From Pseudomonas sp. JQ170C (lineage in GTDB: Bacteria; Pseudomonadota; Gammaproteobacteria; Pseudomonadales; Pseudomonadaceae), in contig NZ_CP141608.1 in the NCBI RefSeq assembly GCF_035581345.1, positions 2,448,501 to 2,512,500 of the forward strand: DNA of 64,000 bases, in the 5' to 3' direction. Below, piece after piece: positions 16,027 to 56,275 of this stretch. The notes below the pieces were generated by a model. The model was not told where the DNA came from, ran no database searches, and saw only the letters and a list, made by a program, of their open reading frames with translations. Made by a program: the position numbers and the translations under genes. Each line of letters starts with the position of its first letter. Within the stretch, counting starts at the first letter, position 1.

Positions 16027-17418
16027 TCACTGGACGATGACCACTTCTTCTGTATCGCTGCCGCCGTTCGCCGAGGTCACCCGAATGGTCGCCGGAGGGA
16101 CTGTGCCGGCGGTAGGCGACAGGGACTTGTCGGCGCCGCCGGAAAGCTCACCGATCAGCGCACCACTCCTCCCGGCGTAAGCGGTCAGGTTTGGAGGCAT
16201 GGTGCGGTCGCTGGTCGAGGCCTCGATGGTCAGTCGACCGGTGCCGCGGCTGTATTCGGCCTTGTTGATGGTGACCAGATCGGTCAGTGGTACGGGCACG
16301 GTGGTGGGCACATGGAGGGTAGGGATCGCCACATGGTTGTCGACCGTCACTTGCAGGAGCGCCGGGATGGTCGGGTTGACGGTCGACTGGCCATACCAGC
16401 TTCCGGTCGAATTGGCTTCCGTCATGGTCACGGCAGTGCCCGCGCTGTCCAGGAAGTTGGCCGTGCCGGGTGGCGGAGGGGCCATGGTGAAGACATCCTG
16501 GTACGCGACCACACCCTCGGGCGTGTTTCCCCGCGAGTAGGTGGCACGCTGGACCAGTGCAGGGGCTGGCAGGTCCACGGCGCTGAGCTTGCCGGACACG
16601 GAGAAGGTGTCGCTGCGCGTATCGATGCCGTTGGGGCCCTGGATACGCAGGTAGTTGGTATTGAAGGGGCTGCCCGTCACTTGCTCCTCTATGTTCGGGT
16701 CGCCGATGTATTTCTCCTGCTGGCCGGTTTCCGGGTTGTTCTCGGCATAAGGGCCATTGACGCTGCGCAGGAACGGTCCGATGTCTCCCCTGAGCGCGCC
16801 GGTGTAGTCGCCGGCTGGGCCGATGCCGATATCGCGGGTCATGTTGATTGCCCGGGTGCCGCCGGTGTCGGCGAACTCTTCCGGCGTGACGTTGAACACG
16901 TCGACGCCATAGGGGTGGGTGACCGTGTAGACGCCAGGTGCGGGCACATCGACGCGAATGCGGATACGGGCGAAGCTCAGTTGGTGGCCGTCAGCGACCT
17001 CGCCGTTGAACGCGGCTTCGATGGCCGCGCCAAAGTCCAGGTCGATGCCGCTGGCGGCGTCGGTAATGGCGCCGTCCGCGGCGAACCAGAACGTTTCATC
17101 GGGATAGTTGGTCGGGAAGACGATCGGCTGGGTGTCATCGAACTCCCCAGGTGCCGGGTTGAGGATGCACATGTATGCCGGCGCCCCGGGGGTGGGTGCT
17201 GCGCGCGAGCTGACCGCCTTGCTCAGGCACAGGTCCAGGGTACGGCCGTGGGTGTCCTGATACCAGGCGGCGTAACCGGTCTTGTTTCCGCTGTCGAGGG
17301 GGTAGGGGCGTTCTCCAGGGACACCTGGATCTACGGCGTAGAGTGCTGCCTGCGCCGTCCCGCCACTTATTGATGCAAGCAGAATTGAACTTGCCAGTAG
17401 GGACAATCTGTTGTGCAT
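16027..17418 (-). CDS. Secreted protein, paralogue of the neighbouring 766-residue protein
   Basis: A 463-residue exported protein; the signal peptide of about 24 residues ends GGTAQA. It shares with its downstream paralogue the order WYQD, LDLCLSKAVSSRA, AYMCIL, FPTNYPDETFWFAADG, LSFARIRIRVDV, YTVTHPYGVDV and GDPN(I/L)(E/A)EQV, then a beta-rich C-terminus. It lacks the two Ig-like units. I do not recognise the domain. It is the first gene of the minus operon, with a -24/-12 promoter about 70 bp upstream, and is divergent from the giant multicopper oxidase. Shared promoter type and shared flanking repeats suggest it works with that oxidase, for instance as a secreted accessory or scaffold; this is inference. 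Confidence 0.78.
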   Translation of the reverse strand: MHNRLSLLASSILLASISGGTAQAALYAVDPGVPGERPYPLDSGNKTGYAAWYQDTHGRTLDLCLSKAVSSRAAPTPGAPAYMCILNPAPGEFDDTQPIVFPTNYPDETFWFAADGAITDAASGIDLDFGAAIEAAFNGEVADGHQLSFARIRIRVDVPAPGVYTVTHPYGVDVFNVTPEEFADTGGTRAINMTRDIGIGPAGDYTGALRGDIGPFLRSVNGPYAENNPETGQQEKYIGDPNIEEQVTGSPFNTNYLRIQGPNGIDTRSDTFSVSGKLSAVDLPAPALVQRATYSRGNTPEGVVAYQDVFTMAPPPPGTANFLDSAGTAVTMTEANSTGSWYGQSTVNPTIPALLQVTVDNHVAIPTLHVPTTVPVPLTDLVTINKAEYSRGTGRLTIEASTSDRTMPPNLTAYAGRSGALIGELSGGADKSLSPTAGTVPPATIRVTSANGGSDTEEVVIVQ

Positions 17419-43700: not shown

Positions 43701-43913
43701 GTGGCCGCTGATATCCAAGACAGCCGCTCCGCCCGCTTTGCCCTGCGTTGCTCCAACTGGGCCGAACGCTGGTTCCCCGACTCCTGGGTGTTCGCCGCCC
43801 TGGCCGTGGTGCTGGTTTCGGTCGCTGCCCTTGCCATGGGCGCCAAGCCCACCGACACCGCCAAGGCCTTCGGCGACGGTTTCTGGAGCCTGATTCCCTT
43901 CACCATGCTGTAG
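43701..43913 (+). pseudogene. atoE: atoE 5' fragment (short-chain fatty acid transporter), interrupted by integrated element
   Basis: GTG start with AAAGGAAAA upstream. Codons 1-69 encode the AtoE N-terminus (SARFALRCSNWAERWFPDSWVFAALAVVLV...FWSLIPFTM) and then run into element sequence, reading Leu-stop. The rest resumes in the same frame at 56257 (MQMAFVVIGGYVVASSPP). The rejoined protein would be about 476 residues, the family's size. AtoE imports acetoacetate and short-chain fatty acids; here it cannot be made as one chain. Confidence 0.92.
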
Positions 43914-43924
43914 GCTGCAATACC
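43890..43924 (+). other. attL of the integrated element
   Basis: Host half CCCTTCACC, shared core ATGC (43905-43908), then the element arm TGTAGGCTGCAATACC. The element arm GCTGCAA is the inverted partner of TTGCAGC at attR. Confidence 0.88.
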
Positions 43925-43973
43925 GTAATAAGGCTGATAGGCTATTCCCACTAGCCTTGTATCGGTCACGCAT

Positions 43974-45515
43974 ATGAAACGCCACGCCATCAGTTACATA
44001 CGCTTCTCCAGTGCACCACAGGCCAAAGGTTCCAGCCGGTACAGGCAGACAGCTATGGTGCAAACGTGGCTCGACAAGCACCCCAACTATGTTCTAGCAG
44101 ACCTGAGCTTTGAAGACTTGGGCAAGTCTGGCTGGAAAGGACATCACATCGAGGGGGGCATGGGGGAGCTACTAGCTGCTGTTGAAGCAGGGTTCATCCG
44201 ATCCGGTGATTGCGTTCTTGTCGAAGCCCTCGACCGTGCGGGACGGCTTGAAACAATGGAAATGCTATCCAAGGTGATAAGCCCTATCCTGCAGGCCGGG
44301 GTCACGCTGGTGACGCTGGACGATGGCACGGAGTATACGAAAGCCAGCCTCAATGGTGGGCACATCTTCCTGTTGGTTGCGAAAATTCAAGCGGCAAACC
44401 AGTTCTCCGAAAACCTGAGCCGACGTGTGAGAGCTTCGTACGAAAAGCGTGAACAGGAAGCCAAGGCCGGGAAAGTCCCAAAGCGCCGTACACCTTTGTG
44501 GCTCAACTCCGAGGGGCAGCTTGTTGAACACATCGCCCCGCATATCATGACTGCATTCGAGCTGTACGCTGATGGATTTGGCGAACGCACGATACTGCGA
44601 AAGCTCCAGGCTACCGGCGTCGAAGAATTCAAAGACCTTTACGGCTCCACGCTCAAGCGTTGGCTGATAAATCCAATTGCAATAGGCAAGTGGAAAGACA
44701 TTCCCAAGGTGTATCCCGCTGTGGTGAGTGATGAACTGTTTTATAGGGTTCAGCAGAAGATCAGCTCCAATCGCACCACACGACCATCCAGCCCAACCAA
44801 GCATCACCTTACCGGCATTGTGAAATGTGCTCATTGCGGGCGAAATTTCAACTATCACGTATTCAAGGATCAACCCACTGTGCTCCAGTGCTCCAATCGC
44901 TTCATGAGCACGGCGGACAAGTGCGAGAACTCCAAAAGCATCCCGCTGGGAGTGCTCAATAGAATTGTCTTGATCACGAGCGTGGGTGCAGATATGGAGA
45001 TTGCTCAGGCCAAAAAGCTGTCAGTGAATCAGAAGCGAATCATCGTGATTGATGGTGAATTGGAAACCCTGGCTGTAAGGCTTGCAGGTCTTGCACAGGC
45101 CATTTCTCAAGTAGGGCCGATGACCGAACTGCTGGAGCAGATAACGGCGTTGAAAACGGAGCAGGAGAAGTTACAAGCGGAACATGCCCTGCTAACGGCA
45201 GGCGAAATACCGTTGACCTATCCTGACTTCATTGAGCACGTAAAACGGGAAGACCCTGACAAGATGCTCTGGAACAAAGACCTCCAGCTTATTGGCTACA
45301 CCATCACCTGCGACAAGAGCGGGAAGCTCGTAACCTCGCACGGCAATGACAGGGTATTCCAATACACTGGGTACATCAGGAAGACTAAAAATTATTCATT
45401 CACAATCGAAGGGAAAGAGAAGGTGTACATGATTCCTGTCCAGCAGCCAACCATCACCATCCCGAAGAAGATTGTGATTCCGAAGGCAGTGATGGAAGGG
45501 ATGAAGAGGCGATGA
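43974..45515 (+). CDS. Large serine recombinase (integrase) of the element
   Basis: 513 residues. The resolvase-type catalytic domain is at 1-150 (AISYIRFSS with Ser12 as likely nucleophile; ALDRAGRLETME), followed by the recombinase domain at about 170-270 and a zinc ribbon near 285-320 (CAHCGRNF...C...C). A coiled-coil motif lies around 350-410 and a C-terminal tail follows. Large serine integrases recombine short attP and attB sites without host factors; this one starts 65 bp inside attL, the typical place. It is the enzyme most likely to have put the element into atoE. Excision would need a directionality factor; none is obvious, though any of the small genes could serve. Confidence 0.93.
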   Translation: MKRHAISYIRFSSAPQAKGSSRYRQTAMVQTWLDKHPNYVLADLSFEDLGKSGWKGHHIEGGMGELLAAVEAGFIRSGDCVLVEALDRAGRLETMEMLSKVISPILQAGVTLVTLDDGTEYTKASLNGGHIFLLVAKIQAANQFSENLSRRVRASYEKREQEAKAGKVPKRRTPLWLNSEGQLVEHIAPHIMTAFELYADGFGERTILRKLQATGVEEFKDLYGSTLKRWLINPIAIGKWKDIPKVYPAVVSDELFYRVQQKISSNRTTRPSSPTKHHLTGIVKCAHCGRNFNYHVFKDQPTVLQCSNRFMSTADKCENSKSIPLGVLNRIVLITSVGADMEIAQAKKLSVNQKRIIVIDGELETLAVRLAGLAQAISQVGPMTELLEQITALKTEQEKLQAEHALLTAGEIPLTYPDFIEHVKREDPDKMLWNKDLQLIGYTITCDKSGKLVTSHGNDRVFQYTGYIRKTKNYSFTIEGKEKVYMIPVQQPTITIPKKIVIPKAVMEGMKRR

Positions 45516-45794
45516 GCTGTACACACCGATGCTATGCACAGAAAAGCAAAAGCTATAATTCATGTTGATGTTATTTGTTATGGGCGTCCGACTGGAGAAA
45601 TCAGGGATGCTGCTGACGCAGTAAAGCATTATATGGTTCACCGGAATCTTGTCAAGAGAAACTCTTGCTTTTTCCGAAAAAAGAGTATAGGTGCCTTAAA
45701 TTTCGCACACCGAAAACCACAGCAACGCCCAAGTAACACAAGGCTCCCAGCCTGTTCTGTCCGTGTAACTACCTAGCGTCAGCGCCACTAAAAA

Positions 45795-46409
45795 TCATCT
45801 ACCCACAACCCTATGTTCTATATAGTAGGCCCGTCCCTGAGGCGTGAGTTCATACACAGGCCCACTATCCGTGCCGTATACCTGAATCATCTTCCTATCT
45901 TTCAGGATGTCGATAGCCGCGTGGGCCTCAACCCAGCCGACACCGAGTGAGGTCCCGACATGCATTAGCAGAGGGTTGATACCACTGTCTATTAGCAATG
46001 CAATGGAGTTGAGGGCATTGAAGGCTGAAATCGGAAGCGGCTCTTCAAGCGCTTTCCGTGGATTGGAAAGATCCTCAATTTGCTGCTCTAGCTCTTTACA
46101 GCGGAACTGAGACTTTTCGAGACTGAGTTTCAAACGGTCGCTGTAGTCATACATCTTGGCCAGTTCCCGGCTCTGGAGCCACGTGAGCAGATACGCCAAG
46201 GAGCCTAGGACCACTACGGGCAGCAGAATGATCCAGGCGCTGAGTGACACCGATGTAGCTAGAAACTCCGAAGTGAACGAAAAGGCACGGGATAGCCATG
46301 CAGGGAACTCACCATGCTCTACAGCATAAACAATCAAAGCTGTGGCGGCAGCACCTAGGGCTAGCTTCGGCCAACTGAAAACCTGTTTCCATGTGAGCTT
46401 CACGTACAT
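45795..46409 (-). CDS. Membrane protein with C-terminal winged-helix domain (element left side)
   Basis: 204 residues, unrecognised family. Two hydrophobic segments (about 15-30 and 50-78: LALGAAATALIVYAV; SAWIILLPVVVLGSLAYLLTWL), a coiled coil at about 85-115, then a ~75-residue winged-helix-like end (WVEAHAAIDILKDRKMIQVY...YELTPQGRAYYIEH). The layout mirrors the protein at 55546-56241 at the other end of the element, although sequences differ. A membrane-tethered DNA-binding or protein-interaction module is plausible. The 280 bp to the integrase stop contains no credible gene. Confidence 0.7.
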   Translation of the reverse strand: MYVKLTWKQVFSWPKLALGAAATALIVYAVEHGEFPAWLSRAFSFTSEFLATSVSLSAWIILLPVVVLGSLAYLLTWLQSRELAKMYDYSDRLKLSLEKSQFRCKELEQQIEDLSNPRKALEEPLPISAFNALNSIALLIDSGINPLLMHVGTSLGVGWVEAHAAIDILKDRKMIQVYGTDSGPVYELTPQGRAYYIEHRVVGR

Positions 46410-46533
46410 AGAGTCCCTGGTCCAAAGCCATAGCGTACCAGAGCTAGGCGGAGGATTGACGGAGCCCTGTCACGTTCGCACGCAGGGTGGTAGCGATGCT
46501 ATATTGCCGCCACGCTCAAAGGACTGTTGTGCC

Positions 46534-46917
46534 ATGAAAAGACGAATTTTAGCTGTAGCCCTCTCCGCATTCTCCGTCGCAGCAATTGCAGAACCCGGCA
46601 GAGTGACAAATGGACAAGACCTGCTAACCGCCTGCAAGGACTTCATAGACAATCCATCAGGCCCGCTCGCTGAGCAATTCAATATGGGGTACTGTGCGGG
46701 CATGATCCCTGCCGTAGGCAATTCATTCATACTCTACAAAGCGATCAACCCAGAAAAGCCGGTGGTCTGCATACCTGAACAGCAGTTCACGCAAGGGCAG
46801 GCTATCAGGGTTGTGATCAAGTATCTTGAAGATCATCCCGAGTCTTTGCACAAGAGTCCGATGGAGCTCACAAGCCTTGCCTACCTACAAGCCTATCCCT
46901 GTAAAGGTAGCTCCTAG
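46534..46917 (+). CDS. Rap1a/Tai-family immunity-like periplasmic protein
   Basis: 127 residues with a signal peptide of 18 (MKRRILAVALSAFSVAAIA). The mature part follows the Rap1a/Tai pattern: G..LL.AC, CAGMIPAVGN, VCIPEQQFTQGQAIRVVIKYLEDHPESLHKSPMEL, ending YPC. Family members neutralise type VI secretion peptidoglycan amidases in the periplasm. No effector gene is adjacent, so it would be an orphan shield against competitors. The start at 46534 is chosen because it opens the signal peptide. The gap 46918-47212 holds nothing I can identify. Confidence 0.78.
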   Translation: MKRRILAVALSAFSVAAIAEPGRVTNGQDLLTACKDFIDNPSGPLAEQFNMGYCAGMIPAVGNSFILYKAINPEKPVVCIPEQQFTQGQAIRVVIKYLEDHPESLHKSPMELTSLAYLQAYPCKGSS

Positions 46918-47212
46918 AGCGGGACACTTATAGACGATTTTCCAGTCACCGAAATTTTTCAGGATGCACTTCGAGAGTGGATTGGAATTCCAGTTGAAAA
47001 AATAATATAGCGACTTGCCCGTGCTTCTTAGCAGGGCGTGAGAGGGGAAAATAGAAACCGTTTATTCCTCGAAATAACCTGTGGTGCTCAGGCATCGTAG
47101 CCACCAACGAAAACGCCTCACCACAGCCCCAGAAAGAGCCATAGCAAGGCGATTGATTACTTTGTATGAGTGGGTATTGGTTGCTAGATGGCGCCCCCAA
47201 TCGAAGGTCTGG

Positions 47213-47785
47213 TCACGCTGCTTTGTTCCAATGGCGCTTGGTGGTGGCCAAGCTGATACCAAGCTTCTCAGCAGTTTGGCTCTGGCTCAAACCATCCGCC
47301 TTACACTCCTGCACATCCTTGGTAGTCCCTACCGCCTCGGGGCGCCCTAGCTTCTTGCCTTCGGATTTTGCACGGTTGATGCCTGCATGGGTGCGTTCGA
47401 TCAACAGGTCACGCTCAAACTCAGCTACGGCACTCAGCACTTGCATGGTCATCTTGCCTGCTGCACTCGTGAGGTCTACGCCCCCCAGGGCGAGGCAGTG
47501 AACACGGATACCAGCGTTAGACAGAGATTCGACAGTGGTGCGGACATCCATTGCATTCCGTCCAAGGCGGTCAAGCTTGGTGACAATCAACACATCACTC
47601 TTCTCCATCCGCTCTAGCAGCTTCTGAAAGCCGGGGCGCTCGCTAGCCTGTGTGCTGCCACTGATTGTCTCAGCAATCACCCGATGATCCTGCACATCGA
47701 ATCCAGCCGACCGGATTTCAAGCAACTGGTTGTCAGTGGTTTGGTCACTGGTGGAAACACGGGCGTAAACGAAGGTGCGAGACAT
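47213..47785 (-). CDS. Small serine recombinase (resolvase/invertase)
   Basis: 190 residues, complete Tn3-resolvase/Hin-type protein. The catalytic start TFVYARVSTSDQ contains Ser11; DVLIVTKLDRLGRNAMD, GGVDLTSAAGKM and the E-helix VAEFERDLLIERTHAG follow; a helix-turn-helix lies at the C-terminus (LSQSQTAEKLGISLATTKRHWN). It probably resolves multimers or inverts a segment. A cluster of GGTGTCA half-sites directly upstream of its start (47816-47867) is the likely recombination site and operator. Confidence 0.93.
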   Translation of the reverse strand: MSRTFVYARVSTSDQTTDNQLLEIRSAGFDVQDHRVIAETISGSTQASERPGFQKLLERMEKSDVLIVTKLDRLGRNAMDVRTTVESLSNAGIRVHCLALGGVDLTSAAGKMTMQVLSAVAEFERDLLIERTHAGINRAKSEGKKLGRPEAVGTTKDVQECKADGLSQSQTAEKLGISLATTKRHWNKAA

Positions 47786-47815
47786 GGTTGGCTTCCTGCT
47801 GTGCTCATCAAGTGT

Positions 47816-47867
47816 GGTGTCATTTTATCAGCGGTGTCACCAAATAGAAAGCACATTTTATGACACC
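47816..47867. promoter_or_regulatory. Res-like site/operator of the small recombinase
   Basis: Two direct GGTGTCA half-sites (47816, 47833) and one inverted TGACACC (47861-47867) with matching ATTTTAT flanks lie 30-80 bp before the recombinase start. Resolvases usually have their res site in this place and repress themselves from it. The rest of the gap 47868-48271 has no gene I can support. Confidence 0.65.
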
Positions 47868-48271
47868 AATTTTAGGCAGTTTCTGCTGGTATCGTCTAAC
47901 GGACGATTGTTGGCACCAAGCCAAGTGCACCAATGACTTGAATGCGGAACTCAAACCGTTCCGATGAGATAAGTGGAGAAACCATTGACAACCCCCTCTA
48001 TTGGTGAGTTTGAAATGGATTTCTCACCGTTTTCTTTCAGAAACTGAAAATTGGCTATGGAGAACCGCCTTTGCTACACAACCGAGTGAGTGAAGCCACG
48101 TAGAATCAGGGCTGTAGAGGTGCTGCAAGGTTTCCCATTTGAAAGATGACCCGGAAACCTGACGTTTTCAGCAGGTTGTTCGAGAGTTTCTGAGGGTTTC
48201 ACAGGCGCTTTCTTTAAAAGACTTCGCGTCGCAAAATGGCCTATCTAAAATCGCAAGGAAAAGGCAAAGGG

Positions 48272-48643
48272 ATGAACGGGTGGCAAAGGCTTTGGGTGGT
48301 GATCTGCCTAGTTATGGCAATTCTCATCGGTTGGTACGCACAGGTGGTCATGCCCACCGAGGAAAGAACCACGTATTACCATCAGACAACAATGGATCAG
48401 TTGACCCGCTATCTAAAGGAAGCTACGGAATCGTCGTATTCAAATGACTACATCACTGGCTTGAAAAAAGACATTCAAAAAGAAAACGAGGATTATGCAA
48501 AAGCACTGGCGGCGCTCCCTAGCGAACGAACGGAGACTATGACTACAGCGCTGGGTATTTGGCTTGGACTGAGCGTAGGGCTCTACATTGCTGGCTGGTT
48601 GATCGGCTGGATTTACCGGGGCTTTCGCCCCAGGCAGCAATGA
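48272..48643 (+). CDS. Small two-helix membrane protein of unknown function
   Basis: 123 residues from ATG 48272, which has AAGG 7 nt upstream. One hydrophobic helix near the N-terminus (LWVVICLVMAILIGWYAQVV), a hydrophilic helical middle (about 30-85, charged, probably periplasmic or cytoplasmic coiled coil) and a second helix near the end (ALGIWLGLSVGLYIAGWLIGWIY). A basic tail follows. No family recognised. It sits convergent to the HNH-like gene, which ends 87 bp further on. Confidence 0.65.
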   Translation: MNGWQRLWVVICLVMAILIGWYAQVVMPTEERTTYYHQTTMDQLTRYLKEATESSYSNDYITGLKKDIQKENEDYAKALAALPSERTETMTTALGIWLGLSVGLYIAGWLIGWIYRGFRPRQQ

Positions 48644-48730
48644 TTGAGTGCTTTGCACGCACACTGAAACACCCCTCTAGCCCTTGTAATACGTGGCTTG
48701 CAGGCTGATTCCACCGTGTGGATCACATCC

Positions 48731-49963
48731 CTACCTGCACGAGCGAACTATGAACTGTGGTTCCTCAACTGGCCCTGATGGGGCAGCAAGGAGAGCAGCA
48801 GGAGCAACGTGCTCCATCAAGCTATCCAGTTCTTCAAGGAAGGACAGAGTGATGCTTGTGTGCGATGCGACCTTGTGAGCTGCTGGACCCTGCCCGGCTG
48901 GAGCGGCTCGCAGGAGGGCTTCGGTTGGCTGGTACATCACGGGCGATGCAAGCGCTTCGGCATACATGGCGTCAATCGTGGAGTCCACTGTGTAGGCTGG
49001 CCTGCCGTGGAGCATGTCGAAAACCAACTGTTTGTCGATTGCATCAAACTGCAAGCGGAAACGATGGCTGGTGTTGGTATCGAGGAATTTCAGGCGCTCA
49101 AGGGCGGGCAAGATTTCAGGGCGATGCGCTTTCCCTATGCGTTCCCACTCGGCTAGCAGAACGCTGGTGTCATCGTCGAACCACTGGAATACTCGAAAGT
49201 CAGTCGCTTTTTCCTTTCCTTGCACTTCTTGTTTTATCCCCGCAAGTACCCGAGCTGTCGCCGTTTCAATCGTTGTCAGGTGCTTGGCATGATACGGGTT
49301 TGCTGGATCGAGGTTATCGACTAGCCACGAGTACAGGGCCTGTCGCTTGGATGGTTGAATTTTCTTCGACTTTACCACGGCCATAACAACCTTCTCACCA
49401 ATGAGCTTGATGATACGTTGAATCACCTCAGCGTGATTTGCCTCTTTCTCCAGGGCGAAGCGTGGAGATAGATCAGCCGTGGGGATTGATGCACCACCAG
49501 CAAAATGCTTGTTGCTGTGAGCACGATTCAACGCCATTGGAGCAATCACTAGATTATCAGCACGGAATAGACCGACAGAGCTTTTACCTCGCACCGGGGC
49601 AATGTGGCTGATTTCAAACTGAGCTTCACCGTATTCTTTACGTAGGCCATAACCATTCATTTTCTGGCAGGCGGCGTACACCTCATAAAGTGCTTCAAGT
49701 TGTTCCTGCGAGAAATCCTTGTAGATCAGAAGCGTTCTCGCACGGATAGCCTGACGGGCCAGCTCTTGGAAGAATGGGGAGTTTGTAGCATTGAATAGAT
49801 ACTTTACGCGGCGTGTTTCATTGTTGCCATTGGTGCGGCAGACTGTCGAACAAAATTTTGCTGTCTTGCTAGCTGTACGAAAACGCTTCTTGCACTGTGG
49901 GCAGGTCGGTTGACGCTTAGTGGCGGGTTTGGCTGTTGCTGATTTCATGTGTATTTGCTCCAT
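48731..49963 (-). CDS. HNH-endonuclease-like protein with N-terminal zinc finger, last gene of the tape-measure operon
   Basis: 410 residues. A CPQC...FCSTVC zinc finger is at about 21-43. A likely HNH/beta-beta-alpha-Me segment, FEISHIAPVRG...DNLVIAPMALNRAHSNKHF, lies at about 120-155, with His, Asn and His in the expected places. The remaining ~250 residues are helical and unassigned. It overlaps the preceding 60-residue gene and closes the nine-gene minus-strand operon. A phage-packaging or homing type nuclease, or a DNA-targeting effector of a defence system, are both possible. Cleavage activity is inferred from the motif only. Confidence 0.6.
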   Translation of the reverse strand: MEQIHMKSATAKPATKRQPTCPQCKKRFRTASKTAKFCSTVCRTNGNNETRRVKYLFNATNSPFFQELARQAIRARTLLIYKDFSQEQLEALYEVYAACQKMNGYGLRKEYGEAQFEISHIAPVRGKSSVGLFRADNLVIAPMALNRAHSNKHFAGGASIPTADLSPRFALEKEANHAEVIQRIIKLIGEKVVMAVVKSKKIQPSKRQALYSWLVDNLDPANPYHAKHLTTIETATARVLAGIKQEVQGKEKATDFRVFQWFDDDTSVLLAEWERIGKAHRPEILPALERLKFLDTNTSHRFRLQFDAIDKQLVFDMLHGRPAYTVDSTIDAMYAEALASPVMYQPTEALLRAAPAGQGPAAHKVASHTSITLSFLEELDSLMEHVAPAALLAAPSGPVEEPQFIVRSCR

Positions 49964-50099
49964 TATGGGTGGCGTGGATTGGGTTTTGAGCTTTTGGATT
50001 CATTGGATCGGAGTGGAAGCAGAATGCGTTGCAGTAGTGTCGACGTTTGGGTGCCGAAAACACATGACCGCAATAATTACAGGTACAAGTTTTATTCAT
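49917..50099 (-). CDS. Small C4 zinc-finger protein in the tape-measure operon
   Basis: 60 residues with CNYCG...HYCNAFC, the same CxxC-x(n)-CxxxC finger type found at the N-terminus of the HNH-like protein and in the operon's first gene. It overlaps the upstream gene by 4 bp and the downstream one by 47 bp. Function unknown; the overlaps argue that it is real. Confidence 0.55.
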   Translation of the reverse strand: MNKTCTCNYCGHVFSAPKRRHYCNAFCFHSDPMNPKAQNPIHATHNGANTHEISNSQTRH

Positions 50100-50365
50100 G
50101 GATTTTTCTCCCAGTGACTTTGGTTGTCGAATTTGTTAGGGGTTGCTCGCATAATTTCTACGGAAACGATTTTTCGCGCTTGCTCTTCGTTGAGCGCCCT
50201 ATCTTGCGAACGTTCTATCTGGAGTCTGTTATATGTTTGCCGGTTCAGCTCTATCGACTGTTGCCGGATAGATTCAATTTCAGAAGCTTGATTGAAGTGC
50301 GATAGTGCAAAAAGCATCCAGGTCAAACAAAGGACGAGCGCTGTCTTACCGATGTACATTGGCAT
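50096..50365 (-). CDS. Small signal-anchored helical protein behind the tape-measure gene
   Basis: 89 residues: one N-terminal membrane helix or signal (TALVLCLTWMLFALSHF) followed by a charged helix rich in Gln/Glu/Arg. It lies 40 bp after the tape-measure stop and overlaps the next gene by 4 bp. The size and layout resemble an i-spanin or a small membrane anchor, but no match is certain. Confidence 0.6.
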   Translation of the reverse strand: MPMYIGKTALVLCLTWMLFALSHFNQASEIESIRQQSIELNRQTYNRLQIERSQDRALNEEQARKIVSVEIMRATPNKFDNQSHWEKNP

Positions 50366-50405
50366 GGGTTCTGTGAGTTTTAGGGGATGGCCCGAAGGCC
50401 ATCTG

Positions 50406-52661
50406 TTATTTGAGTTCTTTCAAGCCTGAAGAGGCACGGGCGATTTGGTCTTCAAACGACCTGCGTGCAATTTCTGAGATTTCACCAGCAGCACGTTGGA
50501 TAATTTCAGATTCCTGAGTGACACCATGGAAGTTCAGCTCAAGCTTGACTTCAGTTGGTGCCTGAACACCAAGGTTGGTTTTGCCAGAACTGATGGTCGC
50601 AGCTAGTTTCTCATAGTCAAAATCAGCGTATGAATGCGTTTTGCCTTTGTGCACTGGAGGAGCTTTGTAATAGTCTGGAATATCCATCGCAGGTATGTTC
50701 ATAGCTGAAATCCGCCGCTGCAAACTATCGGCTGAATTTTGCACTTCTACAGGGTTGAGACTGGCCCCACCCAATGGCTTTGGAGTATCCCATTCATGGC
50801 CCGGCTCTGGCGTCTTCGTCATATACTGATTGCCAGTTTCGGGCGCTGTTGTTTCGGCCTTCGCTTCAGCAATTTTCTTTTGCTCCGCATCTGGCTTGAG
50901 TATCCCCGCCGCAATCAATACAGCTCGAATTTTCTCAATGGCAGAATCGATAACACCAAATGTTTCACTGGCTAGGTTGAGAACGTCAGCGATACGGTTC
51001 AAAAGGAAGGACATGACATCCCGGGAACCATCATCCCCGAAGATACTTTGCCAAAGCTTCTTCAACGTGTCGAAATGATTGGTCATTGAATCGCCAAAGG
51101 CATTCCAGGCTTGTTTGAACTTCTCAATCGAATCTGGACTAAAGTATCGCTCCATTGCTTTCGGGTCAGGACTATTGAGGGTATCAATCACCTCTTTGGC
51201 TAGTTTCAGAATTCTAGTCAAATTATCCAGTGTGTCAGCAGAGAAGCTAGCAAACTGATCGAACTGAGGCCCTAGTGACTTCAACAGCTCTTGCTTTGCT
51301 GAGGTGTACTCGCCAATCGAGGTTTTCAGCTTTCCATTGTTTGACTCGTAGGCTTGTACCATTTGATTGTCTAGCTGATTGTTAAAACGATTGGTACGGG
51401 ATTCCTGCGTACTACGAGCAACATCGAGGGCGCCGCCATCGTTCGCATGCTGCTCCATGATTGACCCGAGGTGCTCAAAGAACTTCGTAACGACCTCGCT
51501 ACCCTTGATCAATTTCTTTTCACGGGCATCGGAGAACGCCTTCTCGGCAGCATCACCTTGAAGTTTGCCCCCGACAGTACGTTGCCAAGCTTCAGCACCA
51601 AATTGGTTAGCGTTTGCCCCCATGTGCTCTGAAATCTGACCTGTCCATTCCTCGCTGTAGAGCTGGTTCTTACCGAGCGCTTGAATGATGCCGCGGTTCA
51701 TGTTGGACAAGTCGTCTTGAGACATGCCTTGTGACTTACCAAATGCCATGATTCCGCGTGTTGTCTCTTCGGCCTTCTGGACACCCATACGTTTTGCAAA
51801 GGCACCAGTCACTTTGGCGTAGTCTCTGCCACCTTCTTTCGCATTCAACCCAAGGAAATCAGCAAGCGTCTGATAGCTCTTTTCCATTCTGATTCCGCCT
51901 TCTCTACTGCCTGCGGCGGCGGTGAAGGAAGCCAATCGCGTATCTCGGGCGTTAGCCGTCCTTTCTGCACTTGAAGCGAATGCGAGAGTTGCAGCAACAG
52001 CGGCGGCAGCCATTGCACCAATTGCGACAGCAGCACCAGCGGCAGCGCCTCCCAAGCCGACCATTGGCCCCATCGAAGGCACCATAGACATTCGCCCGGC
52101 CATTCCGCCAAGACCATGGCCACCACGGTGAACACTACCGCTTGAACGTTGATAGGACGCCCGTTGTGCTTGTCGTTCAAGGGCCTTCTGGCGCTTCTCC
52201 TGCTGCTGTTGAACGAATGCCTCAGCTCGCCCCAGGGCTGTGCGGGAACGTGCCTCAGCGGCTGAGGTATTGGCTCTCTCACGTTGCATACGCTGGGCGT
52301 GTACTTCAGCCCTCATGTTGTGCTGTTGGGCGGCTTTGGCCACCTGAGATTGCTTCAGGGCTTGCTTTGTCTGTTCTATCGAAAGGGCAGTTTGAGCTTT
52401 CGCATTTGCAAGGGTGAATTTGCTTGCTTGCAACTGAGCCGTGAACTGTTCTTTCGATAGAGCAGCATTTTGTTTCAGTTGCTTATGTAGATTCCCTGCA
52501 TCGGCACACACCTGTAGTTTCAGTTTCTTGTTAGCCGCCTTACCAAACTCTTGAAGTCGACGCTGTAGAGCTGCAAGCTTTTTCTCAAAGGCAATCATCT
52601 GTCGCATATCGACATCAAGTGACAGCTTGCCAGTGAGTCTAACGATTTCCTGGCTCATCAT
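50406..52661 (-). CDS. Phage tail tape-measure-like protein
   Basis: 751 residues. Residues 1-180 are Ala/Gln/Lys-rich coiled coil. Residues 199-232 are a Gly/Ala-rich hydrophobic segment, and 235-480 match the tape-measure N-terminal domain (SFTAAAGSREGGIRMEKSYQ; GIIQALGKNQLYSEEWTGQISEHMG; AFSDAREKKLIKGSEV). Residues 480-600 are helical and the C-terminus mixed. Such proteins set siphophage or myophage tail length and help DNA injection. GGGGGA precedes the start, which overlaps the previous stop. No tail tube, chaperone, baseplate or capsid gene is recognisable nearby, so its use here may be other than tail building. Confidence 0.8.
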   Translation of the reverse strand: MMSQEIVRLTGKLSLDVDMRQMIAFEKKLAALQRRLQEFGKAANKKLKLQVCADAGNLHKQLKQNAALSKEQFTAQLQASKFTLANAKAQTALSIEQTKQALKQSQVAKAAQQHNMRAEVHAQRMQRERANTSAAEARSRTALGRAEAFVQQQQEKRQKALERQAQRASYQRSSGSVHRGGHGLGGMAGRMSMVPSMGPMVGLGGAAAGAAVAIGAMAAAAVAATLAFASSAERTANARDTRLASFTAAAGSREGGIRMEKSYQTLADFLGLNAKEGGRDYAKVTGAFAKRMGVQKAEETTRGIMAFGKSQGMSQDDLSNMNRGIIQALGKNQLYSEEWTGQISEHMGANANQFGAEAWQRTVGGKLQGDAAEKAFSDAREKKLIKGSEVVTKFFEHLGSIMEQHANDGGALDVARSTQESRTNRFNNQLDNQMVQAYESNNGKLKTSIGEYTSAKQELLKSLGPQFDQFASFSADTLDNLTRILKLAKEVIDTLNSPDPKAMERYFSPDSIEKFKQAWNAFGDSMTNHFDTLKKLWQSIFGDDGSRDVMSFLLNRIADVLNLASETFGVIDSAIEKIRAVLIAAGILKPDAEQKKIAEAKAETTAPETGNQYMTKTPEPGHEWDTPKPLGGASLNPVEVQNSADSLQRRISAMNIPAMDIPDYYKAPPVHKGKTHSYADFDYEKLAATISSGKTNLGVQAPTEVKLELNFHGVTQESEIIQRAAGEISEIARRSFEDQIARASSGLKELK

Positions 52662-53053
52662 GCTGATTCCCCCTTGGGCAGTACAGAACCGCCATAGGAG
52701 CGCTGGCCGGGCAAACTGATATAAACCTTTCGGAATGTATTCAAGACTCTCAGGAGCGCTTTTGAACCATTGCCTTTGTATTGACGCTCCGACTCGCCAT
52801 AGGTTGGCTGAGGTGTAGTGAAGAATTCATCAAGTGCTTCGACTGATTTCCTGTCACCAGCTACTGCTACGACTAGCCCAACCTCAGTGGCGAACCAGAA
52901 ATATCGATATTGATATGTACATCCAGCGTGGTGATTTACATAACCCCGCATCGCACTCGGTAGCCGTTTGATGTTGATACGGCCTGCGAGGCAGTGCACT
53001 GAGAAGGCAGGCCCGCCTTCACTCATGGCTTGAATATATTCAGGTAGCTTCAT
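52658..53053 (-). CDS. Unknown protein upstream of the tape-measure gene
   Basis: 131 residues, mixed alpha/beta, with aromatic-rich centre (YQYRYFWFATEVGLVVAV). No family recognised. It overlaps the previous gene by 14 bp and the tape-measure gene by 4 bp, so it is part of the coupled operon. In phages this place is often held by tail-assembly chaperones or minor tail proteins, but I see no signature for either. Confidence 0.6.
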   Translation of the reverse strand: MKLPEYIQAMSEGGPAFSVHCLAGRINIKRLPSAMRGYVNHHAGCTYQYRYFWFATEVGLVVAVAGDRKSVEALDEFFTTPQPTYGESERQYKGNGSKALLRVLNTFRKVYISLPGQRSYGGSVLPKGESA

Positions 53054-53327
53054 CTGTTCTCCTAGTGACTTCTGTTAGCGTCTGCGTAATGGCAGACATC
53101 ACGGCTTGATATTCCTCGCTCCGCAAGAAGCGATCAACTCGCTTCAATGCGGGAAAATCCACGTGCTGCAACAATGATGTGCCGTACTCGCTCACCAGAG
53201 GTGTGAGGTCAGTGCTAGTCAAGAATTCGTCAATTTCATCTGGTGACTTCACTCCCTCCATCGTGGATCGAAGTGCATCCTCTACAAATTTGGTGAAAAA
53301 TTTCTGTTGTGCTTTTGTGAGTTTCAT
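53040..53327 (-). CDS. Unknown small helical protein in the tape-measure operon
   Basis: 95 residues, acidic, predicted all-helical (QQKFFTKFVEDALRSTMEGV; YQAVMSAITQTLTEVTRR). Overlaps both neighbours (4 and 14 bp). A tail-assembly-chaperone-like role is conceivable from size and position only. Confidence 0.6.
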   Translation of the reverse strand: MKLTKAQQKFFTKFVEDALRSTMEGVKSPDEIDEFLTSTDLTPLVSEYGTSLLQHVDFPALKRVDRFLRSEEYQAVMSAITQTLTEVTRRTDEAT

Positions 53328-53551
53328 TGAACATCCCCTAGGGAAATTTCAGTGATGCCCTCAAGTACAGAGGTAGAGGCTTCCAACAAATCAATAGCTT
53401 CGTTGTACTGTCGTACCATCAATTCAAGGGCAATGGTCATGCCATCCAGCTTCGATTGCAGTTCGTCTTTTTGTGCCAGCAAAGCCATCAGTTCGCTCTG
53501 AGTTGGAGGGATGTAACGTAGATCGGTGAATACGCTATTAGGGTCTATCAT
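53324..53551 (-). CDS. Unknown small coiled-coil protein in the tape-measure operon
   Basis: 75 residues; a heptad pattern runs from about 18 to 62 (SELMALLAQKDELQSKLDGM). Overlaps both neighbours by 4 bp (ATGA). No family recognised. Confidence 0.6.
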   Translation of the reverse strand: MIDPNSVFTDLRYIPPTQSELMALLAQKDELQSKLDGMTIALELMVRQYNEAIDLLEASTSVLEGITEISLGDVQ

Positions 53552-54021
53552 TTCGATAGCTCTGCACGAATACGCTGCTCAATTGCAGCACGCTGGGCTA
53601 GGCGCTCTGCTGCAAGCTCTTTTTCTACCTGACGATCAATTGCCGCTTGTTCGAGTTCGACTTGTCGAGCAATGGTGTCGTTATTCTCTCGCTCGATTGC
53701 CGCTCGATAATCAGCTTCGACTTGTGCGTGGATTGCTCTCAGATCGGCTTTTTGCTCAGCTTGTGGCTTCTTCATGTAGAAGGTGAAATGTGAACCAAGC
53801 TGTTGTGGATCAATGTCGCTGTGTGCGTATCCATCAGCTAGAAGCTCATCACGCTTCTTGAAAGCCGCGTTGAGGCTCGACACAATAAAAGAAACCTGAC
53901 TCACGGTGGCCCGTGTGGTTGGGATAGCAAGCGCGTCGCAAAATCCGCCCTCATAGAATCGCGTGGCGTTTTCTTTTAGCGATTGAAAAACTGACTTATC
54001 AAAAGATTTTAGGATAGACAT
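53548..54021 (-). CDS. Unknown protein with C-terminal coiled coil in the tape-measure operon
   Basis: 157 residues. The N-terminal half is a compact domain (FYEGGFCDALAIPTTRATVSQVSFIV). The C-terminal half, 90-157, is a long charged helix rich in Ala/Glu/Arg/Gln. Overlaps the first gene of the operon by 13 bp and the next by 4 bp. No family recognised. Confidence 0.6.
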   Translation of the reverse strand: MSILKSFDKSVFQSLKENATRFYEGGFCDALAIPTTRATVSQVSFIVSSLNAAFKKRDELLADGYAHSDIDPQQLGSHFTFYMKKPQAEQKADLRAIHAQVEADYRAAIERENNDTIARQVELEQAAIDRQVEKELAAERLAQRAAIEQRIRAELSK

Positions 54022-54314
54022 TCGTTGATTTCCTTACGGTTGGATTTTTGCAGTAGTAGGTTGAGGTATTGCTGAACGATGGCCTTGCTTTCTTCAAATA
54101 CTTCGATTGGCGACTGATCAGACTGATCGTCAAAACCGGCTTGTTCATTTGGTGTCATTGGTTCTGCCTGTTGGATAGGGGTATCGGTAGACTGCTTGGG
54201 TTTCGCTCGATAGCGCTGCATGTAGCAACGATGCGAGCATGTTTGTTTTGTTGGACGTTGCGTTTTCATGGGGACTCCGCAGACCACGCAGGGGCGTTCG
54301 AGGATCAAAGCCAT
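54009..54314 (-). CDS. Zinc-finger protein, first gene of the tape-measure operon
   Basis: 101 residues. An N-terminal CVVCG...TCSHRCYMQRYR finger (about 9-34) resembles those of the 60-residue and HNH-like proteins of the same operon. The rest is acidic and helical. Being first in the operon and carrying a finger next to a basic patch, it could be a regulator. Function unknown. Confidence 0.6.
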   Translation of the reverse strand: MALILERPCVVCGVPMKTQRPTKQTCSHRCYMQRYRAKPKQSTDTPIQQAEPMTPNEQAGFDDQSDQSPIEVFEESKAIVQQYLNLLLQKSNRKEINECLS

Positions 54315-54696
54315 TTGGCCTCCTATAAATTTAGTTGTGAGAATAGTGGGTGGCAGATGCGAAAAAGGGCCGCAAGGCCCTTATCTAGATCACTGCTAAA
54401 ATTGTTACTGTTTCCACCCCCGACAGTAAGCGAGTCTATTGAACAAATGGTGATGAACCATTTATTCTGGTGTACCAGTTTTGCCAACGCTACTGGATAG
54501 AACGAGAGGAAGCGGGGAAACAGTCCGCTTTGGCGTCTCAAGTATTCTTTGAAGAGTTTTTGAGGGATAAGGATCAGCTACGTAGAGCGTAGCTCGCTCA
54601 CCATCACAGAAGGATTCTAACATTGATGGTGAGAAGGGGAAGATGGTGCGCAAGGAAAGCTGAGCCAGAAAAAGAACATTCTCTTGCTACAGGAAA
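54315..54696 (-). other. Leader region of the tape-measure operon
   Basis: About 375 bp between the promoter and the first gene. It contains hairpins (AAGGGCC-GCAA-GGCCCTT near 54365-54382; CTACGTAGAGCGTAG near 54579-54593). Short ORFs in it lack good starts. The long structured leader may allow post-transcriptional control. Confidence 0.5.
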
Positions 54697-54724
54697 ATTA
54701 TACCACGACTTGCTATATTGTCAA
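54697..54724 (-). promoter_or_regulatory. Consensus sigma-70 promoter of the tape-measure operon
   Basis: On the minus strand TTGACA (54719-54724), a 16-bp spacer and TATAAT (54697-54702). Both hexamers are exact consensus, so expression is probably strong and constitutive unless a repressor binds. Confidence 0.85.
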
Positions 54725-54814
54725 CTAAAACTTGCAAAGTTATTTGAAATAGTTTAATGGAATTAGTGCGATAGCCCCGTATCACGGGGCCGTCTTGTAC
54801 CAATGAAGTGACAA

Positions 54815-55531
54815 CTATTCCAACAGCTTCGGACCAGCATCCTGACCAATCAAAGGGTTCTCAGCATCGGTTTGCAGTTGCTCTGCTCGGGCTTGCGACT
54901 TCCAAGCAATCCCGGCCAGCTCTTTGATTGCTTCAACAATCGGTTTCGCGCCTTCGCCAAGCTTGCCAAGGGCTACACCAGCATCCCCCATCAACTCATA
55001 GAATTTGCTGATATCCGACATTTTCTTATGAAGCTCTGACTGCATTTTCTCCAGTCGTTTGAGCATGCGTTGCTTGTGCCCAGCATCCAGCTCTGTATTT
55101 GCGGCTACCAACTCACGAAGCTGGTTTATCAATTGCTGAATACGCTTCAAATCCCCGTCAGTGAATTCGTAACCAAAGCCACTGGACACCGAGATAGCGA
55201 ATCGCTTTTTGAGGCTATCGAGCTTGCTTGCCGAAGTCTGCCCTACCAATTCTTCCTGTGCATCCTGTAGAAATCTCCGCAACTCGTTGCAAACGACCCC
55301 CATGCTCCCGTCTACATCGGGATGACGTACCCTATGCGAAATCAGTTGGTCTTCCTCAAGCTGCAAAAGTAGTGCAGCTCCCTCAAGCAATAAAGCGTGT
55401 TCATCTTCTGACCAGTTGCCTGATGAGCCAGTCATCATCTCGATTCGCGTCAGAACAAAACGACACGCCGTCAATGCACCATCAATAGGATTGTCGCGTA
55501 CTTTCTGAAGGACATCATTTGGGATCGCCAT
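54815..55531 (-). CDS. Coiled-coil protein of unknown function (element right side)
   Basis: 238 residues, acidic, almost fully helical, no membrane segment or signal peptide. The centre (about 120-190) has heptads (LINQLRELVAANTELDAGHK; MLKRLEKMQSELHKKMSDI), and the end carries GKLGEGAKPIVEAIKELAGIAWK. No known family. It is divergent from the membrane winged-helix gene with only 14 bp between starts, so the two probably share a control region. Confidence 0.7.
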   Translation of the reverse strand: MAIPNDVLQKVRDNPIDGALTACRFVLTRIEMMTGSSGNWSEDEHALLLEGAALLLQLEEDQLISHRVRHPDVDGSMGVVCNELRRFLQDAQEELVGQTSASKLDSLKKRFAISVSSGFGYEFTDGDLKRIQQLINQLRELVAANTELDAGHKQRMLKRLEKMQSELHKKMSDISKFYELMGDAGVALGKLGEGAKPIVEAIKELAGIAWKSQARAEQLQTDAENPLIGQDAGPKLLE

Positions 55532-55545
55532 AGCTCATCCATCAT

Positions 55546-56241
55546 GTGAGTGAATGGCTATCACTTTGCCACACGGCTCAGGATGGGTGGAAGCTGCTCA
55601 TGAACGAAGCGCAGGAGCACATCGGCAATACTGGCCTGTGCCCGCTCGCGGCCTGCCATCACCCGTTAGCCTCTGATAGCATCTGGCTTTCATCAGGTTA
55701 TTGGGCGAATGCGGTGAAGAAAGTATTCGGGTGGGTGCTTGGTACTGTGCTGGCGGTGCCTATAACAAAATGGGTTGAGGGTGAGCTGAATCTGTCGTTT
55801 TTCAGTCCCGCAATTTCGGGGCTTTGGGGCTGGCTCAAGGGTATTGCCAACTGGTTTGCGAGAGACGTTTCTCTCCCGTTCTGGCTGCTGATGCTCATGA
55901 TCGTACTCATGGTGGCCTTGGCCGTACCTGTTGGGCTGCTGATTTACGCCCGGTATGAAAAGGGAGAGGCTCCGGCTGGTGCGCCCCTGACAGACGACCA
56001 AAACCTCGCATTCGTTATCATCGGGAAAGCGATTCAAGAAGGGTATGAGCCTGGGTTTGACGATGTGCTCAGGCACTCGCGGCTGTCCAGAATTGCAACG
56101 CAGAACGCTCTAGAGCACCTTACAGCCGTGGGACTCATCCGTCCTGTAAGTGCTCCTTTTGGGCGGCGATATGCGGAACTGACCGCACTTGGCCGTAAGC
56201 ACTTCCTTGAGCTGGAAGCTTCGAGCAAATCAGACTACTAA
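55546..56241 (+). CDS. Membrane protein with C-terminal winged-helix domain (element right end)
   Basis: 231 residues from GTG 55546; the first ~55 residues look poorly conserved, and a later start near 55600 or 55713 is possible. Two hydrophobic segments (about 57-72 VFGWVLGTVLAVPITKW; 107-133 LLMLMIVLMVALAVPVGLLIY), then a winged helix (IATQNALEHLTAVGLIRPV...YAELTALGRKHFLE). It matches in architecture the protein at 45795-46409. Its stop lies 15 bp before the attR core. Confidence 0.68.
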   Translation: MSEWLSLCHTAQDGWKLLMNEAQEHIGNTGLCPLAACHHPLASDSIWLSSGYWANAVKKVFGWVLGTVLAVPITKWVEGELNLSFFSPAISGLWGWLKGIANWFARDVSLPFWLLMLMIVLMVALAVPVGLLIYARYEKGEAPAGAPLTDDQNLAFVIIGKAIQEGYEPGFDDVLRHSRLSRIATQNALEHLTAVGLIRPVSAPFGRRYAELTALGRKHFLELEASSKSDY

Positions 56242-56275
56242 ATTGCAGCTTTTTATATGCAGATGGCCTTCGTGG
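56241..56275 (+). other. attR of the integrated element
   Basis: Element arm AATTGCAGCTTTTTAT, shared ATGC (56257-56260), then the host half AGATGGCCTTC. The uninterrupted attB would read CACCATGCAGATGGCC in atoE codons 68-72. Confidence 0.88.

Follow-up and report, generated by a model that had tools for sequence, protein, structure and literature searches.

A putative satellite of Pseudomonas phages with a tape measure protein resembling those of virulent Vandenendeviridae

A 2026 study presented the PLEs (phage-inducible island-like elements) of Vibrio cholerae, satellites of the virulent myovirus ICP1, as the earliest known case of a satellite family with chimeric tails (PMC12987554). According to that study, the tape measure protein (TMP) of PLE11 is incorporated into tails while the ICP1 TMP is excluded, the tails being 10 nm shorter for a difference of 95 amino acids (aa), and deletion of tmp cuts PLE transfer by about 99.9% (PLE11), 96% (PLE1), and 99% (PLE4); putative tmp genes are also noted in other Vibrio elements and in cf-PICIs (PMC12987554). 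Here, an integrated element of 12,352 bp was analyzed in Pseudomonas sp. JQ170C, within a stretch of 64,000 nt (NZ_CP141608.1 positions 2,448,501 to 2,512,500) that is referred to as the window and whose numbering is used throughout. Like a PLE, the element carries its own TMP gene beside small tail genes and is without the remaining tail and capsid genes, and its putative helper would likewise be a virulent myovirus (PMC12987554). It differs from the PLEs in host and putative helper, and no tail assembly chaperone was identified in it. The element is probably a satellite of virulent Vandenendeviridae of Pseudomonas that builds chimeric tails from its own and helper parts.

P4-like satellites carry a P4-type primase-helicase together with P2-directed capsid and transcription genes, and neither was matched among the 16 open reading frames (ORFs) of the element in Pfam and PHROG scans. 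The same scans named no capsid, portal, terminase, tube, sheath, lysis, or replication family, which covers the own capsid, portal, and terminase by which capsid-forming PICIs are marked. An earlier note on this DNA, which had recognized no tube, baseplate, capsid, portal, terminase, lysis, or replication gene, was thus largely matched by the profile scans. The PICMIs, satellites of virulent Vibrio phages, have few genes and are small, like some of the TMP-less elements described below, but they are described as lacking capsid remodelling genes and occur in other hosts, whereas the window element carries helper-like structural genes (PMC10803314). The island I55 of Pseudomonas fluorescens SBW25 is carried in a satellite-like manner by a jumbo phage, but it is larger and belongs to a class with tyrosine recombinases at tmRNA or tRNA genes, and the term 'tape measure' is absent from the main text of its description (PMC12595487). 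No report of Vandenendeviridae satellites was found in the literature searched, which left subscription papers and preprints mostly outside.

Tape measure and DUF7375 proteins

The TMP gene lies in an operon on the minus strand that starts at 54314 and encodes, in order, proteins of 101, 157, 75, 95 (DUF7375), 131, 751 (TMP), 89, 60, and 410 aa (HNH-like). Successive genes overlap by 13, 4, 4, 14, and 4 bp, a 40-bp gap follows the TMP gene, and the last two overlaps are 4 and 47 bp. The overlapping, intact operon described in the earlier note was therefore real. The note had also listed an HNH-like protein between 50096 and 54724; such a protein belongs to the operon but lies outside that range, within which the 101-aa protein is a zinc finger.

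54009-54314, minus strand: treble-clef zinc-finger protein, 101 aa, first gene of the operon (Pfam DUF2116 at 1e-3, below the cut-off; PHROG at 6e-5; homologues in other elements)
53548-54021, minus strand: chassis protein, 157 aa, with a small alpha/beta head and a 70-residue helix (alignment; AF2 pLDDT 96)
53324-53551, minus strand: 75-aa protein (weak PHROG match, 6e-3)
53040-53327, minus strand: DUF7375 protein, 95 aa (Pfam PF24090 at 6e-17; Vandenendeviridae homologues)
52658-53053, minus strand: 131-aa protein (homologues in L007 at 6e-11 and, weakly, in L015, L053, and L057)
50406-52661, minus strand: TMP, 751 aa (PHROG, tblastn, phmmer, tree)
50096-50365, minus strand: 89-aa protein with an N-terminal hydrophobic helix (a similar small protein lies 3' of the TMP gene in other elements, by position and inspection)
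49917-50099, minus strand: zinc-finger-like protein, 60 aa (PHROG of unknown function at 1e-3)
48731-49963, minus strand: HNH-like protein, 410 aa, with an N-terminal zinc finger, the chassis marker (PHROG HNH endonuclease at 7e-5; alignment)

Labels such as L007 denote loci compared with the window element. Single-sequence matches of the TMP to PHROG tape measure families were weak (2e-4 and 1.5e-3), and its identity as a tape measure, already proposed in the earlier note, was established by comparison with phages. A tblastn search of 50,697 phage records returned 31 matching records, 30 from Pseudomonas and one from Pectobacterium, all with less than 60% identity; no Vibrio phage matched at E 1e-5, although the presence of ICP1 among the records was not checked and the PLE genes themselves were not compared. 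Among the 20 of the 31 records that were listed, the genomes measured 89-102 kb and the matching gene was annotated as tape measure in 13, hypothetical in five, and kinase in one, with one lacking annotation. The TMPs of the phages NoPa and PPSC2 were matched by phmmer at 8e-25 and 5e-18. By blastp, residues 1 to 73-97 share 37-47% identity with the TMPs of four phages; for three phages, there is also a match of 22-28% identity in the middle of the protein (about 245-496). NoPa, with Pseudomonas putida KT2440 as its recorded host, is a member of the subfamily Gorskivirinae of the Vandenendeviridae, as is Otagovirus, the genus that includes PPSC2. By sequence match, the relatives of the window TMP and DUF7375 protein are thus large, virulent-type Pseudomonas myoviruses, of which the two looked up are Vandenendeviridae.

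From a search of 5.8 billion proteins, 7,994 TMP candidates were scored and 22 were kept; the organism, where named, was Pseudomonas except for one compost-metagenome entry. In the TMP phylogeny, a single branch with support of 100/100 separated 33 non-phage TMPs from seven phage TMPs. The non-phage set consisted of 14 proteins from inspected loci and 19 database proteins without inspected surroundings; P0001, P0012, P0022, and the L057 TMP, whose gene is split into two frames of 385 and 360 aa (L057:6267-8789), were left out, and the program issued a long-branch warning. The TMPs were of similar length on both sides, with 725-790 aa in the non-phage set (mean 759, n=33) and 771-787 aa in the phages (n=7). 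The TMP of the element was accordingly distinct from those of the helper family, as far as the putative helper is correctly assigned. In the one pair compared, L064 and L065, the TMPs were 94.7% identical with a dN/dS of 0.14, which shows purifying selection on an element TMP in that pair; the HNH proteins had a dN/dS of 0.17.

Homologues of the DUF7375 protein were found in 183 phage records (182 Pseudomonas, one Pectobacterium), where the 20 listed had genomes of 94-102 kb, and the NoPa and PPSC2 proteins were matched at 1e-12 and 7e-9. In these phages the gene is located at 86.6 kb (NoPa) or 90.2 kb (PPSC2), outside the tail block, and the TMP gene at 11-14 kb. In the window both are in one operon with only the 131-aa gene between them, and in L007, L008, and L009 the DUF7375 gene directly precedes the TMP gene. 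The AF2 model of the protein (pLDDT 90.8) consists of five helices, and the protein is a candidate TMP partner or chaperone. The matching gene of PPSC2 (NC_073678.1, 90154-90516) is annotated as PhoH-like, and the neighboring product names in that record may be shifted by one gene.

Related elements and scaffold-like peptides

Genes of the compared loci were called as greedy longest ORFs, and the genome searches scored few candidates per genome, so that the counts of genomes are lower bounds. Close TMPs were rare: at least three of 398 genus genomes carried one in the single-protein search and at least four of 392 in the alignment search, the own genome included in both. The single-TMP search missed divergent TMPs that were later found through the HNH protein, which was present in at least 30 of the 398 genomes, again with the own genome. 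Of these 30, 23 were examined (19 newly fetched and four earlier), and 25 loci were compared, namely 20 from 19 genomes together with the window, L007, L010, L011, and L015. The loci share, in varying sets, the integrase, zinc finger, 157-aa protein, HNH protein, and resolvase, and 13 of them encode a TMP, including the split one. The integrase was a serine recombinase in L011, L053, L063, L064, and L065 and a tyrosine integrase in L010, L015, and L054, while L064 and L065 combine near-identical TMPs with different serine recombinases. In the TMP-less L051 and L052, the HNH gene follows the 157-aa gene after 187 bp; in the window, the 75-aa to 60-aa genes sit between the two. Because these genes are missing from that position in L051 and L052, the TMP genes look, from their arrangement, like a cassette carried by a chassis that is more widespread in Pseudomonas.

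Larger sets of helper-like genes were found in L007 (Pseudomonas sp. W4I3) and in the IMG/VR contigs L008 and L009. All three carry the TMP, the gene after the TMP (phrog_817), a spike/baseplate gene, and DUF7375; L007 and L009 additionally encode a tail completion/Neck1 protein (phrog_222), and L008 a further phage homologue (phrog_3360). Matches of these genes to PPSC2 or NoPa reached E values down to 1e-71, and the spike/baseplate gene can be compared with the gene for the baseplate hub in PLE11 (PMC12987554). The loci were compared with two Vandenendeviridae, and no head, sheath, tube, or terminase match was found in them, other phage families not having been systematically sought. Within this comparison, homologues of the operon therefore do not appear to lie always within complete prophages, the arrangement that the earlier note had named as speaking against its idea.

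Several single proteins of these loci were also recorded. The front of a 275-aa protein of L008 (13089-13916) matches the phage protein of phrog_3360 (NoPa 70745-71242) and its end weakly matches terminase small subunit profiles (1e-3), making it a possible packaging redirector. In L015, a 235-aa protein (7378-8085) has matches to the zinc-finger protein and also to the 157-aa chassis protein, and it is itself matched by a 239-aa protein of L058 (5445-6164); these proteins hint that the zinc finger and the 157-aa protein may act together. Homologous proteins are encoded in or beside elements at L009:12998-13933, L007:13458-14447, and L059:5402-6391, the first of which matches the PADLOC candidate defence family PDC-S15 (8e-31). 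L070 (MT836130.1, 1-12681) is a record of human faecal origin (Mexico) labelled "Bacteriophage sp."; it represents a TMP-bearing element in its integrated state, flanked on either side by chromosomal DNA.

Besides tail genes, some elements encode small proteins that resemble one end of a phage protein. A phage gene of phrog_4103, which precedes the genes for head decoration and the major head protein, had a weak head-scaffold match (0.01) and was taken as the scaffold gene from its position and the helical, charged tail of its product. In NoPa and PPSC2, the protein closes with DRTT-x-(I/L)LKAKY and a few further residues; in phiK7A1 the end is DTTFEILKAKY, again with a few residues after it. 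Two small proteins of L009 terminate in TTSILKAKYGL and TTDILKAKYGNK. A peptide score, devised after this likeness had been noticed in L009, was calculated for 828 ORFs of the loci against the three phage ends. Eight ORFs scored at least 26.7, all inside elements and encoding proteins of 75-110 aa with the peptide near one end; they are listed here together with the lower-scoring L060:

L009:7497-7829 and 7868-8155: two small proteins, C-terminal peptide
L055:8435-8734: small protein, C-terminal peptide
L065:7313-7540: small protein, C-terminal peptide
L062:12133-12381: small protein, C-terminal peptide
L010:12493-13064: two small proteins, N-terminal peptide
L070:1615-1932: small protein, N-terminal peptide
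L060:7743-7979: small protein whose peptide (score 21.3) falls within the background of unrelated ORFs scoring 21-24

A score of at least 26.7 was also obtained for two of 2,484 shuffled ORFs (28.3 and 27.7), corresponding to 0.7 expected per 828. The eight proteins are candidate capsid-redirecting proteins. In SaPI1, a PICI, CpmB shares a C-terminal capsid-binding motif with the scaffold of phage 80alpha and competes with it (PMC5644958). A comparable sharing, seen at the level of sequence, is found at the C-terminus in L009, L055, L062, and L065 and at the N-terminus in L010 and L070; SaPI1 differs in the kind of helper, and the window element has no such peptide.

Insertion site, promoter, and leader

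The element spans 43905-56256 between ATGC copies at 43905-43908 and 56257-56260. It interrupts a gene for a short-chain fatty-acid transporter, the beginning of which ends at 43908 and the right part of which starts at 56257 (Pfam SCFA_trans at 2e-71, with the match beginning at profile position 62). An 80-base sequence joining the two flanks was matched at full length, as an empty site, in 11 of 28 other genomes; in the own genome, it gave two halves with a 4-base overlap (ATGC), and the borders were set from these matches and the overlap. With a GC content of 0.503, the element lies between its flanks (0.65) and the two candidate helper phages (0.47-0.48). As shown by the anatomy and the empty sites, a large serine recombinase placed the element in the transporter gene.

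The promoter of the operon is separated from the first gene by a leader:

54697-54724, minus strand: consensus sigma-70 promoter, TTGACA-16-TATAAT with TG before the -10 (12/12 match)
54361-54689, minus strand: non-coding leader, 329 nt, with the start assumed from the promoter (folding energy)
54365-54382, minus strand: terminator-like hairpin separating promoter and operon, AAGGGCC-TTGC-GGCCCTT with T's after it (hairpin scan)

The exact promoter reported in the earlier note stood up to testing, since an equally good site arose in none of 60 dinucleotide shuffles of the 1000-base region before the operon. The conclusion drawn from it there, that the operon is constitutive, was weakened by the leader and by the hairpin, which the note does not mention. 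The minimum free energy of the leader was -98.3, compared with a mean of -77.3 (sd 5.6) for 30 mononucleotide shuffles. When the 130 bases preceding the first gene were scanned, 13 of 19 elements, counting that of the window and with some of them related to one another, showed such a hairpin, compared with 0.42 expected from shuffles; the window hairpin was absent from the output of a stricter scan. Seven TMP elements (the window, L007-L011, and L015) share the plan of a promoter matching 10-12 of 12 positions, about 250-690 nt, and a hairpin near the first gene; in L008, the hairpin emerged in the later promoter and hairpin scans. Among 20 elements in the promoter test, at most 5 of 60 shuffles equalled the site in 12, with none in eight of them, and the promoter did not stand out in the other eight (L050, L051, L052, L053, L057, L060, L062, and L070). 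For the hairpin test, inner ATGs replaced the first-gene starts that had been used for L007 and L009 in the promoter test; the start of L011 was a few bases off, and L050 was included in the promoter test only. Because the leader and hairpin separate promoter and operon, constitutive expression of the operon is doubtful, and the promoter most likely yields a short RNA, with the operon depending on read-through. Analogies for this plan are lambda pR' and P4. A further analogy for the leader is SviR, the conserved regulatory RNA of the PLEs (PMC12987554).

The remaining features of the element are as follows:

43974-45515, plus strand: large serine recombinase (integrase), 513 aa, at the left end (Pfam Resolvase, Recombinase, and Zn_ribbon_recom; PHROG integrase at 4e-50)
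45795-46409, minus strand: 204-aa protein with an N-terminal hydrophobic part and a winged-helix-like C-terminus (inspection only; L007 homologue at 2e-21; no Pfam or PHROG family)
46342-46917, plus strand: ORF with a C-terminal Rap1a immunity-protein domain, start probably at 46537 (Pfam PF18602 at 1e-15; L009 homologues)
47213-47785, minus strand: small resolvase/invertase, 190 aa (Pfam Resolvase at 9e-38; PHROG DNA invertase at 4e-60)
48236-48643, plus strand: putative membrane protein, 135 aa (homologues in L051, L052, L066, and L068)
54815-55531, minus strand: 238-aa helical protein upstream of the leader (best matches at chance level, including tape measure profiles at 0.03 and 0.05)
55546-56241, plus strand: 231-aa protein with hydrophobic segments and a winged-helix-like end (inspection; L009 homologue at 2.5e-39)

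The 204-aa and 231-aa proteins, which both combine a hydrophobic part with a winged-helix-like end and have homologues in L007 and L009, respectively, are possible membrane-bound regulators. Proteins of the Rap1a immunity type recur, at 46537-46917 in the window and at 16711-17094 and 17324-17698 in L009.

A probable satellite and its alternatives

The window element combines an integrase with helper-related assembly genes in the absence of a full virion set, the general mark of a satellite. The idea of a satellite with its own tape measure, one of those raised in the earlier note, gained support from the homology to one helper family, from the tail genes and scaffold-like peptides of the relatives, and from the PLE precedent (PMC12987554). 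It is favored because the TMP and DUF7375 match the same kind of phage and share an operon here while lying far apart in the phages, because L007-L009 carry further helper tail genes and scaffold-like peptides recur, and because of the fully supported TMP split, the low dN/dS, and the recurring leader-hairpin plan. That infection induces the element, that its TMP is used in helper tails, and that it is packaged and transferred would follow by analogy with the PLEs. The element sits in the chromosome, placed there by its serine recombinase, and in an uninfected cell the strong promoter would make a terminated leader RNA. Upon infection by a helper, the operon behind the hairpin would be read, and the satellite TMP, helped by the DUF7375 protein, would replace the helper TMP; the tube, sheath, and baseplate of the helper would thereby form around the satellite ruler. 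The chimeric tail would then join a helper-made head carrying the satellite, at the cost of helper particles.

Several observations weigh against a satellite. Neither a scaffold-like peptide nor a chaperone or replication gene was identified in the window element, the comparison of elements brought out no common packaging sequence, and the leader antisense test was negative. Fold searches with the 157-aa and DUF7375 proteins gave no match, and no named fold for the latter. A TMP was not found in 12 of the 25 loci with the chassis marker.

The main rival is an anti-phage role, in which the TMP and DUF7375 would shield the population by poisoning the assembly of Vandenendeviridae tails or their injection step, without the element being carried in particles. 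A full-length, helper-like TMP could make dead tails, tail assembly is a known defence target (PMC11364771; PMC12987554), and the window element lacks the peptides and other helper genes of its relatives. Such a decoy nevertheless appears unlikely, since the spike and further tail genes of L007-L009 and the scaffold-like peptides of others serve building and not poisoning, a mobile parasite would account for the integrase, the resolvase, and the sporadic spread, and no known defence family was identified among the nine element proteins scanned. A satellite would harm its helper as well, so the two are not exclusive, and a phage-blocking role, which the element may have, is compatible with a satellite. 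The TMP-less loci would also suit a genomic island moved by transformation or generalised transduction, on which the TMP operon would be a passenger serving some unrelated purpose, as would MT836130, a phage-labelled contig that is an integrated copy with chromosomal flanks; this is improbable in view of the TMP, DUF7375, spike, tail-completion, and scaffold-like sequences, which all match one phage family. As for a decayed prophage that retained its tape measure by chance, the phage-like genes and integrase are what it would leave, but decay, against which the earlier note had argued, is not supported: the frames are intact and mostly overlapping, the 33 non-phage TMPs stay within a narrow length range on one side of the branch from the phages, and dN/dS is low in the one TMP pair. 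TMP elements moreover have serine as well as tyrosine integrases, and Adele, a sequenced member of the phage family, is described as lacking integrase and repressor genes (PMC12846349). Only the TMP and DUF7375 among 15 window proteins compared matched the two phage proteomes, with no contiguous Vandenendeviridae virion block, and a search without a positive control did not find a Vandenendeviridae major capsid protein in the own genome. Decay is therefore very improbable.

Returning to the satellite, a wider picture is put forward tentatively, with slightly less than even confidence. A Pseudomonas satellite family on virulent Vandenendeviridae may be built as a modular kit, in which a shared chassis, made up of integrase, zinc finger, 157-aa helical protein, HNH protein, and resolvase, would receive swappable tail cassettes, either a TMP with small partners or a TMP with spike, tail-completion, and one further tail gene, along with small scaffold mimics that redirect the head. 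The promoter and terminated leader would act as an infection sensor, with helper-induced read-through opening the operon.

Members of the Vandenendeviridae are studied for phage therapy (PMC12846349). The element would represent an apparently separate lineage of tape-measure-bearing satellites, in another genus and on another virulent helper family than the PLEs, and the finding connects the TMP with DUF7375, for which no function in phages is known. If this is true, the question of why satellites bring their own tape measure would become testable in an easily handled laboratory host with natural elements that do or do not carry the cassette.

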